Origin: a virus
Length of the DNA: 40,003 nt
Virus record (IMG/VR): IMGVR_UViG_3300047354_000101
Span: 1 to 40,003 of that record
Direction: 5' to 3' (one strand)
Shown: piece after piece, positions 565 through 29,043 of the stretch
Layout of the letters: each line of letters opens with the position of its first letter
How positions within the stretch are numbered: position 1 is the first letter of the stretch
Notes under the pieces: generated by a model
Told to the model about the DNA's origin: nothing
Database searches by the model: none
Seen by the model: only the letters and a program-made list of their open reading frames with translations
Made by a program: the position numbers and the translations under genes

Positions 565-870
565 TTTAAAAAAATAGTGCAAGTGCGATACTTAAGACAT
601 CGAACCTATCAAGTGCAACTTCACTATACGATAGATGCGAATGCTTACCCATATGTGGGCAAGACATGGGCTAACTAGGTGTGCCAAAAGGGTGGTAACT
701 TCTTAGACTAGACAAGTGCCAAGTAAGAGGCTTGTTGAATATGGGAAAAGTGCGACCAACGAAATCCTAGGGTGGTCAATGGTAAGTAGGCGAGAAATTT
801 CTAGAAGGGCAAGTTTTGTTTGTTGTCTTGTCCTTTCCCTACGGTGCTAGGGCTTTAATCTACAAACTAT
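565..870 (+). ncRNA. Candidate structured non-coding RNA
   Basis: This gene-free block has much higher GC than its surroundings (27/60 in 601-660 and 28/60 in 661-720, against 8/60 in 241-300), the usual signature of a structured RNA in an AT-rich genome. Stems that can be drawn by eye: 574-584/618-627, 645-652/666-674, 699-705/724-730, 754-758/773-777, 805-813/827-835 and 837-841/848-852. The motif AAGTGC occurs four times (581, 611, 714, 748) and AGGGTGGT twice (689, 769). No tRNA, tmRNA, RNase P or 6S hallmark is recognised. The strand is assumed plus because it precedes the rightward arm; no clear promoter of its own is seen. Confidence 0.4.
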
Positions 871-941: not shown

Positions 942-1050
942 GGCATCAAGATAAATGCCTCATGTAGTGAATTAACCTAATGACTAAGGGCATTGTGAAT
1001 ATTTTTTATAATGCCCTTTACATTGTGTTGTTAAAGGGTATAATGCCCTT
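942..1050 (+). promoter_or_regulatory. Cluster of GGGCAT/ATGCCC hairpins before the first early gene
   Basis: Three related stem-loops follow one another: GGCAT 942-946 with ATGCC 955-959; AAGGGCAT 986-993 with ATGCCCTT 1011-1018; AAGGG 1034-1038 with CCCTT 1046-1050. The 12-mer TATAATGCCCTT occurs at both 1007-1018 and 1039-1050, 32 bp apart (about three helical turns). The middle hairpin, followed by TTTAC, could end transcription of the upstream RNA block; alternatively the repeats are operator sites, since one lies exactly on the promoter -10 box. Which of the two is inference. Confidence 0.5.
1017..1044 (+). promoter_or_regulatory. Sigma70-type early promoter
   Basis: TTTACA (1017-1022), a 16-base spacer and a perfect TATAAT (1039-1044) lie 35 bases before the start of the first gene. 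The -10 box sits in the loop of the third hairpin of the repeat cluster, so access may be controlled by a repressor or by structure. It would begin the main rightward early transcript. Confidence 0.6.
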
Positions 1051-1078: not shown

Positions 1079-1435
1079 ATGGCTATTAAAACAATCAATG
1101 CAACTTTTTGGAAACAATCAACGGGTTTAACGGGTCAAAACTTGACACAATCAAACCAAAAAAAGTTTACTAGAGTTGCTAAGAAGTATAAAAAGGTTAC
1201 AGAAAAATCACTTTCTAAGACTAGATTATACAAGGCTAGTAGGGTTGGAGCAAGAAACTTGAAGAAGGAGTTTGGTACTAGAATTGGTAGTACTAGCATT
1301 GCGACCTTTGAAATGTTACTTACTGCAATTGATAAAGAACTCAATGGAGTTAAGCACTCTATTGAATTTGGTGAGTTTCAAGTTAAGTCTTACAATGACT
1401 TTGCTAACTCAACTGCTACTAGGAAAAAAGCCTAG
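1079..1435 (+). CDS. First early protein, basic, unknown
   Basis: A 118-residue protein. The frame is open upstream to 980, but the ATG at 1079 is chosen because GGAG (1067-1070) lies 8 bases before it and the promoter box (1039-1044) would otherwise be inside the gene. It is rich in Lys, Arg, Ser and Thr, mostly in the first 75 residues, with no membrane segment and no family I recognise. Being the first gene behind a strong early promoter and flanked by a strong hairpin, it is a candidate host-takeover or nucleic-acid-binding protein; that role is inferred from position and charge only. Confidence 0.75.
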   Translation: MAIKTINATFWKQSTGLTGQNLTQSNQKKFTRVAKKYKKVTEKSLSKTRLYKASRVGARNLKKEFGTRIGSTSIATFEMLLTAIDKELNGVKHSIEFGEFQVKSYNDFANSTATRKKA

Positions 1436-3824: not shown

Positions 3825-4095
3825 TGTAAGTGCAAAAGTAACTGAGATAAATCTAAAAGTAAAACCACAAGAGTTATCAATACTTCTTGATGCTCTTTAT
3901 GATGCTATGAGTGAAATGGAAACTGTTAATGATGACTTCTCACTAGTAACTTTGAATGTAGAAGGTAAGCTACCTTTCTATAAAGTAGAAAAAAAATCTG
4001 ACCCACACGTTAGGGAATGGTTTATCAAGTATAGAAGATTAGCTGTACAACTAGATAGAATGTATGTTAAGGTAATAAAACTAGGAGGAGTATGA
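3817..4095 (+). CDS. Hypothetical protein, 92 residues
   Basis: The start at 3817 is chosen over 3805 because GGAG (3807-3810) stands 6 bases before it. The protein is soluble and helical, with a Glu/Met/Asp-rich centre and a basic C-terminal third. No family is recognised. It directly precedes the methyltransferase gene with a 2-base gap and shares its transcript. Confidence 0.6.
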   Translation: MANVSAKVTEINLKVKPQELSILLDALYDAMSEMETVNDDFSLVTLNVEGKLPFYKVEKKSDPHVREWFIKYRRLAVQLDRMYVKVIKLGGV

Positions 4096-4097
4096 TA

Positions 4098-5291
4098 ATG
4101 AACGTGCTAAGTTTATTTGATGGTTGTAGTGGTGGTCAAGTTGCCTTACAAAAGCTAGGTATCCATGTAGACAACTACTATGCAAGTGAGATAGATAAGT
4201 ATGCAATCAAGGTAACTCAAGCTAACTTTCCTAACACTATTCAGCTAGGAGATGTTACACAAGTAAAGCCTAGTGAAAGGGGTATGGGTGTTGACTATGC
4301 CTTAGACTATGACCCACCTATTGATTTACTTATGGGTGGTTCGCCATGTCAAGGTTTCTCATTCGCAGGACATCAGCTTAACTTTGATGACCCACGTAGT
4401 AAGTTATTCTTTGACTTCATACGTATCAGAGATGAGTGTATGCCTAAGTATGTACTGCTAGAGAATGTACGAATGGCTAAGAAATCACAAGATGTAATAT
4501 CTAAGTATATGGGATTTGAACCACAAGCATTGAACTCAAGCAAAGTATCAGCACAAAATAGATACAGATTGTATTGGTTTGGTAAACGTGTAGGCGATAG
4601 CTATGAGCAGATACCTATACCCCCTATGATTGAAAAGGGTATCACTATGCAAGACATACTAGAAGATGGCTATGCTACAGATGAGATGACTAGCAATGGC
4701 AAGTCACATTGTCTTACTGCAAGATACAATGGTGCAGTATGGTGGAATAGTATTGAACGTAAGCAACGTACTATGGTACTCAAGGATAATCCTACCATGT
4801 CTAAAGATGGATTGATTAGGGTTGGTACTGCTGACCTCAAAGGGCATGACTCAATCAAGCGAGTGTATGCACAAGAAGGTAAAGCACCTACACTCACCAC
4901 CATGCAAGGTGGACATAGAGAACCAAAGGTTGCAGTAGGTAGAATTGTGAATCGTAGACTTGATGAGAATGGTACACGAAAGGATTACCAACTTGAACTA
5001 CCTTACACAAGACAGATAGAAGTTCGCAAAGATGAGAAGTCTAACTGTCTCACTACTGTACAAAAAGATAACGTGCTAGTGTCTAAAGATATGTGGCGAA
5101 AGCTAACACCACTTGAGTGTGAACGATTGCAAACACTACCTGACAACTACACCAATCATGTATCAAACTCACAACGATACAAAATGATTGGCAATGGATG
5201 GACAGTTGATGTGATTGCACATATACTCAAGGGTATACCATTAGCTGAGACGTGGCATGAAATGTATAACAATAACAAGGAGTTAGTATAA
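4098..5291 (+). CDS. DNA (cytosine-5-)-methyltransferase
   Basis: A 397-residue SAM-dependent enzyme that methylates carbon 5 of cytosine in DNA. Motifs in order: SAM-binding LFDGCSGG (residues 6-13), catalytic PCQ loop with Cys84 in GGSPCQGFS, ENV (122-124), QNRYRLYW (153-160), then after a long target-recognition insert a C-terminal TPLECERLQ and IGNG block. All key residues are present. The start at 4098 is preferred to the ATG at 4092 because AGGAGG (4083-4088) is 9 bases before it but only 3 from 4092. No restriction enzyme is adjacent, so it is probably a solitary phage methylase protecting DNA from host restriction. Confidence 0.93.
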   Translation: MNVLSLFDGCSGGQVALQKLGIHVDNYYASEIDKYAIKVTQANFPNTIQLGDVTQVKPSERGMGVDYALDYDPPIDLLMGGSPCQGFSFAGHQLNFDDPRSKLFFDFIRIRDECMPKYVLLENVRMAKKSQDVISKYMGFEPQALNSSKVSAQNRYRLYWFGKRVGDSYEQIPIPPMIEKGITMQDILEDGYATDEMTSNGKSHCLTARYNGAVWWNSIERKQRTMVLKDNPTMSKDGLIRVGTADLKGHDSIKRVYAQEGKAPTLTTMQGGHREPKVAVGRIVNRRLDENGTRKDYQLELPYTRQIEVRKDEKSNCLTTVQKDNVLVSKDMWRKLTPLECERLQTLPDNYTNHVSNSQRYKMIGNGWTVDVIAHILKGIPLAETWHEMYNNNKELV

Positions 5292-6437: not shown

Positions 6438-6902
6438 ATGCCTGTATATGATAAGGATGGAAACATAGAAAAATGGAGTTGGTATGATATTTTTTGGGAT
6501 GTCGAGAAAAAAAAGTTCTTTCCTCCTAGATGGTGGGTAAAACATTTAGCTGAACAGTCTGAGGATGATTGGGAATTGCCTTGGTTTATTCAGAGTAAAA
6601 TATATTGGCTCAACGATTATCTAGATTGGTTGAAGCAACCTAGAGGTGTTACATCAACTGTACAACCATTTAAAAAGAAATACATAATAAAAAGTTTGTA
6701 TGATTCTGATTACTTTGATTATGATGGAGCAGGAGATTGTTACACAGTAGAGGAAAGATATGATGTACATGATTCTTTGGATGACATCTTAAAATCACTA
6801 AAGAAAAATATCAGATGTGAAAATGGAATGAAACCTAAATTAGACACAGTAGAAGAGTATTGTCAGGAGTTTGGGTTTGAAGTTTATGAAAGGTTGTATT
6901 AA
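6438..6902 (+). CDS. Hypothetical Trp/Tyr-rich protein
   Basis: A 154-residue acidic protein with AAGGAG 8 bases before the start. Its first third is very rich in tryptophan and other aromatics (for example WSWYDIFWDV and PPRWWVKH), and its centre has an unusual DYDGAGDCYTVEERYD segment. No transmembrane segment is evident. Function unknown. Its stop shares a base with the integrase start. Confidence 0.65.
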   Translation: MPVYDKDGNIEKWSWYDIFWDVEKKKFFPPRWWVKHLAEQSEDDWELPWFIQSKIYWLNDYLDWLKQPRGVTSTVQPFKKKYIIKSLYDSDYFDYDGAGDCYTVEERYDVHDSLDDILKSLKKNIRCENGMKPKLDTVEEYCQEFGFEVYERLY

Positions 6903-7798
6903 TGCAGTTAAAAAACTTAGCAGATGAGTACTATTTATCTAGTGATTTCAGTATGTTAGCAGATAAAACTAAAGCAGACTATCAATACTTTCTAGGTGTC
7001 ATGCTTGATACATCTGTCGATGGTAAGAAATTGTCAAGCACAAAATTACCAAAGATGTCAGGTGCTAAGGCTAGACGAGCATATGAAGTGTGGCTAAAAC
7101 GTGGCATTTCTATGGCTAATCATATATGCTCTGTAGCAAGGAAACTATTTTCATTTGCTATGGAGATGGGGTATGCTGAGAGCAATCCATTTTCTACATT
7201 CAGAAGAAAAGCTACCCATGTTAGGAAAGTTGTATGGACAAAAGACCAAGTTTGTCAATTTCTTGACTATGCCTATAGTGAATTTAAGTATAGGAACATA
7301 GGATTGATTGTACAAATGGCTTACGAATGGTGTCAAAGAGTAGGAGATATGAGAATGTTAGAGTTTTCTAGCATAGATTTTGATAAAAGTGTGCTAAATT
7401 TGCAACAGTCGAAGAGAAGAAGTGTGGTTCATCTACCAATTTCACTTGACTTATTAGAAATGCTTAAACAGCAGAAGGAAGAGTATGGTTTTCAGTCTTA
7501 TGTCGCACCCTACCCAACAGCGATGAGAGGAGCATACGAGCCATATTCTCTTCATAGGCTTTCAAAGGTAGCAAGAAAGGTAATGAAGCTCTGTGGACTG
7601 CCTGATGAGCTAAGAATAGCTGACTTAAGACGAACAGGAACTACTGAGATGGTAGAAGCAGGTGTATCTATGGGTCAAATTATGTCTGTCACGGGTCACG
7701 CTAACCCCAATAGTGTGAAACCTTACATGAAAAATACTTATGCCTCTGCAGAAAATGCATTGACAACTCGAAAAAAGTATGCTATAAGCACAGGGTAA
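6902..7798 (+). CDS. int: Tyrosine recombinase (phage integrase)
   Basis: A 298-residue site-specific recombinase that would insert or excise phage DNA at att sites. An N-terminal SAM-like core-binding domain (residues 1-105) precedes the catalytic domain. Seen active-site residues: Arg146 (WCQRVGDM), Lys171 (SKRRS), Arg243 (ADLRRT), His266 (TGHANP) and Tyr275 (KPYM). The usual first His of the HxxR box is Ala240; I recall this variant in marine phage integrases. Its place among early genes, far from any recognisable attP or repressor, is notable. It may be active in lysogeny or be a relic. Confidence 0.92.
   Translation: MQLKNLADEYYLSSDFSMLADKTKADYQYFLGVMLDTSVDGKKLSSTKLPKMSGAKARRAYEVWLKRGISMANHICSVARKLFSFAMEMGYAESNPFSTFRRKATHVRKVVWTKDQVCQFLDYAYSEFKYRNIGLIVQMAYEWCQRVGDMRMLEFSSIDFDKSVLNLQQSKRRSVVHLPISLDLLEMLKQQKEEYGFQSYVAPYPTAMRGAYEPYSLHRLSKVARKVMKLCGLPDELRIADLRRTGTTEMVEAGVSMGQIMSVTGHANPNSVKPYMKNTYASAENALTTRKKYAISTG
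7760..7788 (+). promoter_or_regulatory. Sigma70-type promoter inside the 3' end of the integrase gene
   Basis: TTGACA (7760-7765), exactly 17 bases, TATAAG (7783-7788): 11 of 12 consensus positions. It is the obvious promoter for the primase-helicase-polymerase block that begins at 7844 after a 45-base gap, and would separate replication from integrase expression. Confidence 0.6.
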
Positions 7799-27721: not shown

Positions 27722-28345
27722 TTATTCTGAGAAGGCATAGTACCAACCCGTAGCAATATATTTGGTGTTTGATATAGGTGGATTACCCCTATGAGTATGA
27801 GTAAAAGAGGATGGGAATAACACCATGCTACCTTTTTTTGGTTTAACTCTCATACTATGATACAAAAACTCCAACTCACCACCTTCTTCAACATCGTTTA
27901 AAAATATACTCCAAACTAAAAATCTTTGTTTAGTTTGCTGACTAGCACTTTCATAATGCCAATCATGAAAGCCACCACTTTGAGTTGTTTCTTGAAATTT
28001 AAATTCTGTAAAATCAACAATATTATTATCCGATATTTCCTTCAAGGCTTCTGCCATTGTATTGGAATACACTTGCAAACCTTCTACTAAACAATTAGTA
28101 AATATATTACCTAAGTTACCACCAAAGTTTATATTTTGATAAACTTGTAGACCAGTTAAATGTGTTAAATATAATGTTCCTGCCCTTTGTGTATCTTGTC
28201 TACCTTTTCTGTTGTCTATAGTTGTTTGTTGTTTATAATTCTTTTCTGGATTTTTCATATTCTCAACAATAAAATCACAAATCTCAGAACTGAGCATATT
28301 ATCTATAGTCATAACAAAGTTTTTCACATGGACGTTTTTCTTCAT
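27722..28345 (-). CDS. 2OG-Fe(II) oxygenase, variant with HxE
   Basis: A 207-residue double-stranded beta-helix protein, last of the accessory cassette. The metal site would be His130-Tyr-Glu132 (in GGFHDWHYES), with the third ligand His183 or His185 in FPSSFTHTHRG and Lys195 as the likely 2-oxoglutarate anchor. The carboxylate ligand is Glu where Asp is usual, and the anchor Lys where Arg is usual in this cassette. The GGELEF and VLFPS segments match the prolyl-hydroxylase-like group. Substrate unknown. Its start overlaps the QueC-like gene by 4 bases. Confidence 0.75.
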   Translation of the reverse strand: MKKNVHVKNFVMTIDNMLSSEICDFIVENMKNPEKNYKQQTTIDNRKGRQDTQRAGTLYLTHLTGLQVYQNINFGGNLGNIFTNCLVEGLQVYSNTMAEALKEISDNNIVDFTEFKFQETTQSGGFHDWHYESASQQTKQRFLVWSIFLNDVEEGGELEFLYHSMRVKPKKGSMVLFPSSFTHTHRGNPPISNTKYIATGWYYAFSE

Positions 28346-29043
28346 AGTGGCATACCTTTATCATCATATATATTCATTTTTCTGTGGTTGTTGCATTTAG
28401 GACAGTCATTACAATGCCATTCAGTTGAAAGGCAACTTCTAACCATTTTTTTCAAATCTATTTCTAATGTATCCCAAGCCTCTTTTTTATTTTTAAATCT
28501 ATCTATACCTTCACCTTTGTATACAGTAGCTGGAGTACAAAAGTCTATATCAGAGTTTTGCAACCTTGAACCCACATCAATATAAAATTGCATTTTTTCC
28601 TTTGTGTAGTCACCAGGAAGACAATGGTGACCATAAACTTCTGTGTCGTTTTCGTGCTTTACGTATTTTTGTCTTAATATTTCATCTGAAAAACTATAGT
28701 GACCCATCCACATACGATCAATGTTATAATTATTGCAAAACATTGCTCCATAAAAAACACACCATTGATTATCTGTGCCAAAATAGGTGCTCTCGTTTTC
28801 TTCATTTAATGTTGTCATTACAGTAGCTTGTGAATATTCAAAATCACCATATTTTTTACTCATATACTGAAGAATACTATTTGCAGCAGTATTTTGTAAA
28901 CGCACTCTACCGTGCATCCTTTCTGCCCAACCTAACTCAATATACAAAACTCTTACTTTTTTTCTCTCTTGTAGAAAGTGTTTAAGTAATACTGTGCTGT
29001 CTATGCCTCCAGAAAATAAAAGTAAATCAGTTGCTTGATTCAT
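28342..29043 (-). CDS. QueC-like PP-loop ATPase (7-cyano-7-deazaguanine synthase family)
   Basis: A 233-residue protein. The PP-loop SGGIDST (11-17) binds ATP, and four cysteines Cys204, Cys211, Cys214 and Cys217 near the C-terminus match the zinc site of QueC, which turns carboxy-deazaguanine into preQ0 using ammonia. The DFCTPATVYKGEGIDRFKNK-type stretch before the zinc site also agrees with QueC. The central QueC motif with a PGRN turn is not recognisable, so substrate may differ. No QueD, QueE, FolE or DpdA gene is in the window. It sits between two dioxygenase genes and overlaps both. Confidence 0.78.
   Translation of the reverse strand: MNQATDLLLFSGGIDSTVLLKHFLQERKKVRVLYIELGWAERMHGRVRLQNTAANSILQYMSKKYGDFEYSQATVMTTLNEENESTYFGTDNQWCVFYGAMFCNNYNIDRMWMGHYSFSDEILRQKYVKHENDTEVYGHHCLPGDYTKEKMQFYIDVGSRLQNSDIDFCTPATVYKGEGIDRFKNKKEAWDTLEIDLKKMVRSCLSTEWHCNDCPKCNNHRKMNIYDDKGMPL

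Follow-up and report, generated by a model that had tools for sequence, protein, structure and literature searches.

Few large structured RNAs show strong covariation, and, to our knowledge, the known phage examples, GOLLD and ROOL, large ornate RNAs that also occur in bacteria, are still without an assigned function. OLE and raiA are large structured noncoding RNAs of bacteria that have conserved core segments. Structured RNAs of marine phages have also been described, such as manA and wcaG from marine metagenomes and cyanophages (PMC2864571), while temperate phages carry the c4 antisense RNA (RF01695), a regulatory RNA with pairing segments. RNA-based replication origins are found in phages as well (PMC7157519); those of mycobacterial prophages lie by parABS and, like ColE1 RNA II, involve noncoding RNAs of a few hundred nucleotides, in phages intergenic. 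The RNA described here resembles GOLLD and ROOL in being large, noncoding, built of many helices, located in phages and supported by covariation, but it is smaller (about 430 nt) and has no tRNAs nearby. OLE and raiA belong to another lineage and context, manA and wcaG are gene-associated cis-regulatory elements, and no sequence is known to be shared with the prophage origins or with ColE1 RNA II.

None of the Rfam families named above matched the locus. A scan of Rfam 15 with the window and four relatives gave no gathering-level match, and targeted scans with the GOLLD, ROOL, OLE and raiA models gave none at E values up to 3 to 5, in agreement with the preliminary description, which could not match the region to a large phage ncRNA such as GOLLD or ROOL and proposed such a scan. 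ARAGORN found no tRNA or tmRNA genes, and an RNase P-like reading of AGGGTG...GGTAAGAG was rejected, as it had no Rfam support. A paper on this phage group makes no mention of a noncoding RNA; preprints and most subscription journals lay outside the literature search, so that an earlier description is possible. With a fold preserved while its sequence diverged, the RNA very probably represents a new noncoding RNA family of marine phages.

The window, that is, the whole 40,003-base IMG/VR record analyzed here, is a contig of a marine podovirus of the HMO-2011 type, a group described as widespread and dominant among ocean phages (PMC9038755). The podovirus assignment made earlier was upheld by the DNA polymerase, a family A enzyme with a DnaJ-type insert that is 65% identical to those of Puniceispirillum phage HMO-2011 and Roseobacter phage CRP-345. 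Rightward genes between 1079 and 18339 encode a methyltransferase, integrase, primase, helicase, the family A polymerase and RNR, and the structural genes run leftward. In relatives with more left-hand sequence, the leftward late operon begins about 1.5 kb before gp1, the first early gene, which places the gene-free first kilobase of the window between two divergent operons, the leftward late operon on one side and the rightward early operon on the other. Among the other genes, a cytosine methyltransferase lies at 4092 to 5291 and a tyrosine integrase at 6902 to 7798 (phrog_1, E value of 7.5e-33), so the phage may be temperate; a leftward gene at 28342 to 29043 has a weak QueC-like match (phrog_1550) and may act in the modification of DNA or nucleotides.

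A new large structured RNA had been proposed at 565 to 870, and this proposal was supported by the covariation, the absence of a protein and the absence of an Rfam match. The interval itself proved to be only the middle of a longer unit, predicted to span about 537 to 966 on the plus strand (∼430 nt), with conserved structure from about 543 to 966; it is conserved in about 50 viral contigs and supported by covariation, and its 5' end was set from the position of the promoter and its 3' end from the last covarying helix. The interval is indeed richer in GC than its AT-rich flank (41.8% compared with 25.9% for positions 1 to 536, with a minimum of 12% in 50-nt windows of the flank), but the value is not the ∼45% first given, and among all 306-nt windows of the genome 11% have a GC content at least as high. 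The repeats noted there were counted correctly, with AAGTGC at 581, 611, 714 and 748 and AGGGTGGT at 689 and 769, but they are not conserved as repeats: relatives carry AAGGGC, AAGGGT or AAGAGT at 611 and do not keep the copy at 689, and only the copies at 748 and 769 are strongly conserved. A role for the motifs as functional repeats was accordingly rejected. Similarly, the good stems read from the single sequence had a minimum free energy no better than that of shuffled sequences (z = +0.89 on the plus strand and -0.02 on the minus strand), so that the evidence for the fold is comparative. The region was confirmed as gene free, with no open reading frame of 50 or more amino acids; the frames present in the window and its close relatives are short, with none long or shared, and close relatives encode no protein across it; the preliminary description had named such a protein in homologous phages as refuting. 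With a length well above 200 nt and no conserved open reading frame, the unit has the size and coding properties of a large structured phage noncoding RNA.

On the plus strand, at a fixed place heading the early operon, the RNA has a conserved fold with no fewer than 12 helices and with two pseudoknots. From 5' to 3', P1, the pseudoknot PK1 and P3 are followed by a core closed by P5 and containing Pa, PK2, H and Pd, and then by Pf and a 3' domain with Pg and Ph. P1 (AAGG/CCTT, 549-552 with 562-565, with a conserved ACGAC in its loop) is fully paired and changes on both sides in three of its four pairs, its arms being AAGG/CCTT, AGAG/CTCT or AGAC/GTCT. PK1 is a small H-type pseudoknot with a stem at 581-584/590-593 and loop bases 586-589 pairing with 599-602; its loop-to-3' pairs change together (GC:9 AU:3 and AU:6 GC:6), and its stem, as read by eye, is AAGT/ACTT, GAGT/ACTC, TAGT/ACTA or AGGT/ACCT across subfamilies. 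P3 has an outer helix (606-610/630-634) and an inner one (612-615/622-625) whose third pair occurs as GC, UA or AU; subfamily B has other hairpins instead.

The core is closed by P5, which joins 638-649 with 781-792 and, over 10 pairs, shows changes on both sides in 6 and 98.3% pairing. Within it, the Pa hairpin (653-656/664-667, loop GGGCAAG) has the arms ATGT/ACAT, ACGT/ACGT, ACAT/ATGT, GCGC/GCGC, AGCC/GGCT and others, and its loop (658-661) pairs with 682-685 to form PK2, which covaries across subfamilies as GGCA/TGCC, GGCG/CGCC, GACAG/CTGTC, GATAG/CTATC, ACTAT/ATAGT, ACTTT/AAAGT and AATTC/GAATT. The long-range helix H (675-679 with 766-770) links the two most conserved segments; it is invariant inside subfamily A, to which the window belongs, and switches at every pair across subfamilies (CTAGG/CCTAG, CCAGA/TCTGG, CGTGG/CCACG). 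The Pd hairpin (712 to 735) is 100% paired and keeps a CCAAG-type loop in all four subfamilies. Downstream of the core, the Pf hairpin (807 to 833, arms GGGCAAG/CTTGTCC, loop TTTTGTNNGTTGT), which also served as a search pattern, has covarying arms (GGCTAG/CTAGTC and others); subfamily D and some members of B have lost it or have something else in its place. In the 3' domain, Pg (874-879/960-965) changes on both sides in four of six pairs and is 92% paired over its five variable pairs, and Ph (942-946/955-959) changes on both sides in three of five and is 80% paired. Some subfamilies have swapped or lack the 5' part, Pf or the 3' domain, and the core is affected much less, a pattern that points to a modular RNA built around a conserved working center. 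In subfamily A, the loops of P1 (ACGAC) and Pf (GTTGT) could form a kissing pair, but this is not kept in B and the idea was dropped.

Covariation, which had been named as a check, was strong. For the subfamily of the window, 12 sequences aligned with MAFFT (alignment A3, 72% mean column identity) were compared with a proposed structure of 61 pairs; 97.4% of the cells were paired, 26 of the 61 pairs changed on both sides, and the covariation score was 0.328. The shuffle control yielded 87.8% paired cells, 12.7 both-side pairs and a score of 0.149, and none of 500 shuffles matched the real structure for four of the five measures. The slid-partner control, which flatters the structure because this was drawn from the same sequences, yielded 31 to 44% paired cells, two or three both-side pairs and a score of at most 0.077. 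When the alignment alone was used as input, RNAalifold recovered P1, P3, P5, Pa, H, Pd and Pf, in a structure in which 26 of the 73 pairs covaried.

The test was extended to 26 sequences across subfamilies, in which the strands of Pa, H and PK2 were aligned by hand because MAFFT left the groups one base out of register. Helix H rendered 130 Watson-Crick cells out of 130, PK2 118 out of 130, and Pa 99 paired cells out of 104, whereas shuffling the 3' strands among sequences, which ignores their relatedness, gave means of 74% for H (maximum, 86%), 66% for PK2 and 75% for Pa. An automatic check of string order was passed by 22 of the 26 sequences; the four that failed belong to subfamily C, where one Pa string had been entered as AGGC for GGGC, with extra unpaired cells as the only effect. 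Parsimony on a tree that was itself derived from this RNA gave one to seven pair-state changes per pair, so that pairs changed repeatedly. Cells that were not Watson-Crick held G-U 33 times and A-C 8 times, as expected of an RNA read from the plus strand. Altogether, the locus almost certainly encodes a conserved structured RNA.

Homologues were found at the same genomic place in about 50 other IMG/VR contigs by searching with gp1, the DUF7178 protein, a gp1 profile and short RNA patterns, followed by nucleotide profiles, and were grouped by eye into subfamilies A to D. One contig, IMGVR_UViG_3300047376_000517, is not independent, being 99.9% identical to the window. A covariance model made with sequences of subfamilies A, B and C retrieved further B members, with E values between about 1e-13 and 1e-5, and gave weak hits in D (0.01 to 0.02); subfamily D has the 5' domain and Pd in common with the others and a reduced core, and in one contig (L032) the match is confined to the 5' domain. 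Thirteen contigs with a short-pattern match only (L155-L158, L162, L172, L174, L177, L178, L180, L183, L184 and L186) were put down to chance. In host genomes, a first RNA pattern gave zero matches and a second gave one, in a Lachnospiraceae contig, which was rejected as unsupported by any RNA model, so that there was no credible match overall; four subfamily queries against phage DNA records gave no relevant match. Neither HMM nor covariance model detected the RNA in the stretches examined of HMO-2011, CRP-345, CRP-1, CRP-207 and HTVC033P, and it is thus not essential to HMO-2011-type phages. Cultured phages of this type have a gene-free gap of their own, of 0.9 to 1.5 kb, at the same place (L167, 3837 to 4719; L168, 3119 to 4046; L169, 3416 to 4896), with stretches common to CRP-1 and CRP-345 that have no similarity to the RNA and possibly constitute a different element.

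A putative sigma-70 promoter for the RNA lies on the plus strand at 502 to 530 (TTGACT at 502-507, 17 nt, TCAACT at 525-530), ahead of the predicted start at about 537. Its -10 box is poor in the window, and a simple consensus scan of the window does not list it; as a consensus match, a TTGACN-17-(TA..) site directly precedes P1 in most members, in all four of the subfamilies. At the other end, a hairpin at 986 to 1018 (plus strand, 14-nt arms, 5-nt loop) stands beside the -35 box of the early-gene promoter and may mark where the RNA ends or is processed. Several A members and most B members have a hairpin of differing sequence there, and some A members have none. There is no clear U-tract or intrinsic terminator after the RNA in the window, so transcription may read through into the early operon. 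The early-gene promoter itself (1017 to 1044, plus strand, TTTACA-16-TATAAT) has 11 of 12 consensus bases, and relatives have all 12 (TTGACA-TATAAT); across the family, the separate promoter of the next gene is often close to consensus. The RNA was first described as immediately upstream of the early promoter region, and a further hairpin lies between the two. The promoter precedes gp1 (1079 to 1435, plus strand), a neighbor outside the RNA that encodes a basic protein of 118 amino acids. Independent transcription of the RNA is likely on these signals.

The position and the promoter suggest early expression by the host polymerase, which, together with the variable gene behind the RNA, leads us to prefer a trans-acting early RNA. 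Host RNA polymerase would transcribe it from its own promoter after DNA entry, among the first phage transcripts; transcription would stop, or the RNA be trimmed, near the 986-1018 hairpin, and gp1 and the early operon would restart at 1017-1044. The RNA would fold into the compact P5-closed core, with a pseudoknotted domain on its 5' side and a 3' domain that can be exchanged, and might act in trans as an early scaffold or decoy for a conserved host target, through invariant single-stranded core segments, aiding takeover, counter-defense or the choice between lysis and lysogeny. The trans step is the least certain, and the whole account has in our judgment slightly better than even chances. 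The RNA heads the early operon of an abundant ocean phage group, a position in which one would look for takeover functions; with a compact, defined core it suits structural work, and it could serve as a marker for marine metatranscriptomes.

The same signals could also be read as those of a cis-acting leader, transcribed from 502-530 into gp1, whose fold would act on the early mRNA through its elongation (antitermination), its stability or its translation. The RNA does share a strand with the early genes that directly follow it, and no clear U-tract terminator intervenes, but the near-consensus promoter between it and gp1 would make a leaderless early mRNA, and known antitermination RNAs are smaller. 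Nor is the same gene always behind it, as in a leader or riboswitch: other small open reading frames replace gp1 in five contigs (L017, L019, L106, L165 and L032) while the RNA stays, and gp1 relatives occur without the RNA in L134, L138, L148 and HMO-2011. Since most homologues were found via gp1, the share of loci in which gp1 follows the RNA is, besides, biased upward. A gene-specific leader is therefore unlikely.

Slightly less probable is a replication origin in which the transcript primes or regulates DNA synthesis, in the manner of ColE1 RNA II or the mycobacterial prophage origins. The locus is part of the largest gene-free stretch of the window, lies between divergent operons and adjoins AT-rich DNA that contains a 37-nt direct repeat; the phage encodes an integrase and a polymerase of family A, and cultured relatives have a gap of ∼0.9 kb there too, with other sequence. 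However, related phages with the same set of replication genes have no such RNA. The two copies of the direct repeat, at 354 to 390 and 433 to 469, upstream of the RNA, are 76% identical and 79 nt apart; positions 300 to 500 are also conserved in relatives and may correspond to a second small structured element or to iterons.

A bolder reading, to which we give only a small chance, would be an immediate-early, modular RNA machine whose core is pseudoknotted and whose outer domains can be exchanged, and which redirects host machinery or blocks a defense system in abundant ocean bacteria, acting by itself as an RNA-only assembly, a ribozyme or a multi-target decoy; it would then be categorically new. 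An RNA-only assembly of the GOLLD, ROOL or OLE kind, with copies joined via loops into a dimer or cage, is very improbable: size class, phage location and multi-helix architecture are similar, and RNAs of that kind assemble into homo-oligomers (PMC12286853), but there is no sequence-structure match to those models, and a covarying palindromic loop was not found in a search by eye. A reading without RNA, as DNA-level sites (operators, a packaging or a recombination site) or a small protein, is barely credible and already largely refuted: regulatory DNA is expected between divergent operons, but the covariation is nested and pseudoknotted, with an excess of G-U over A-C, and the open reading frames are short and unshared.

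Two further elements were observed next to the early-gene promoter. In B, C and D loci (L119, L125 and others), and not in subfamily A, a hairpin within the 70 bases that precede the gp1 promoter contains a conserved internal loop with CGCTAG opposite CAGTTAAGCA, resembling a protein-binding or tertiary-contact motif. In the window, an inverted repeat, AAGGGTATAATGCCCTT (1036 to 1052), encloses the -10 box of the gp1 promoter; the corresponding repeats of relatives have other arms (GGGTGTAATGTCACACCC, AGGCATAATCTGCCT), as would be seen if an operator had changed specificity.
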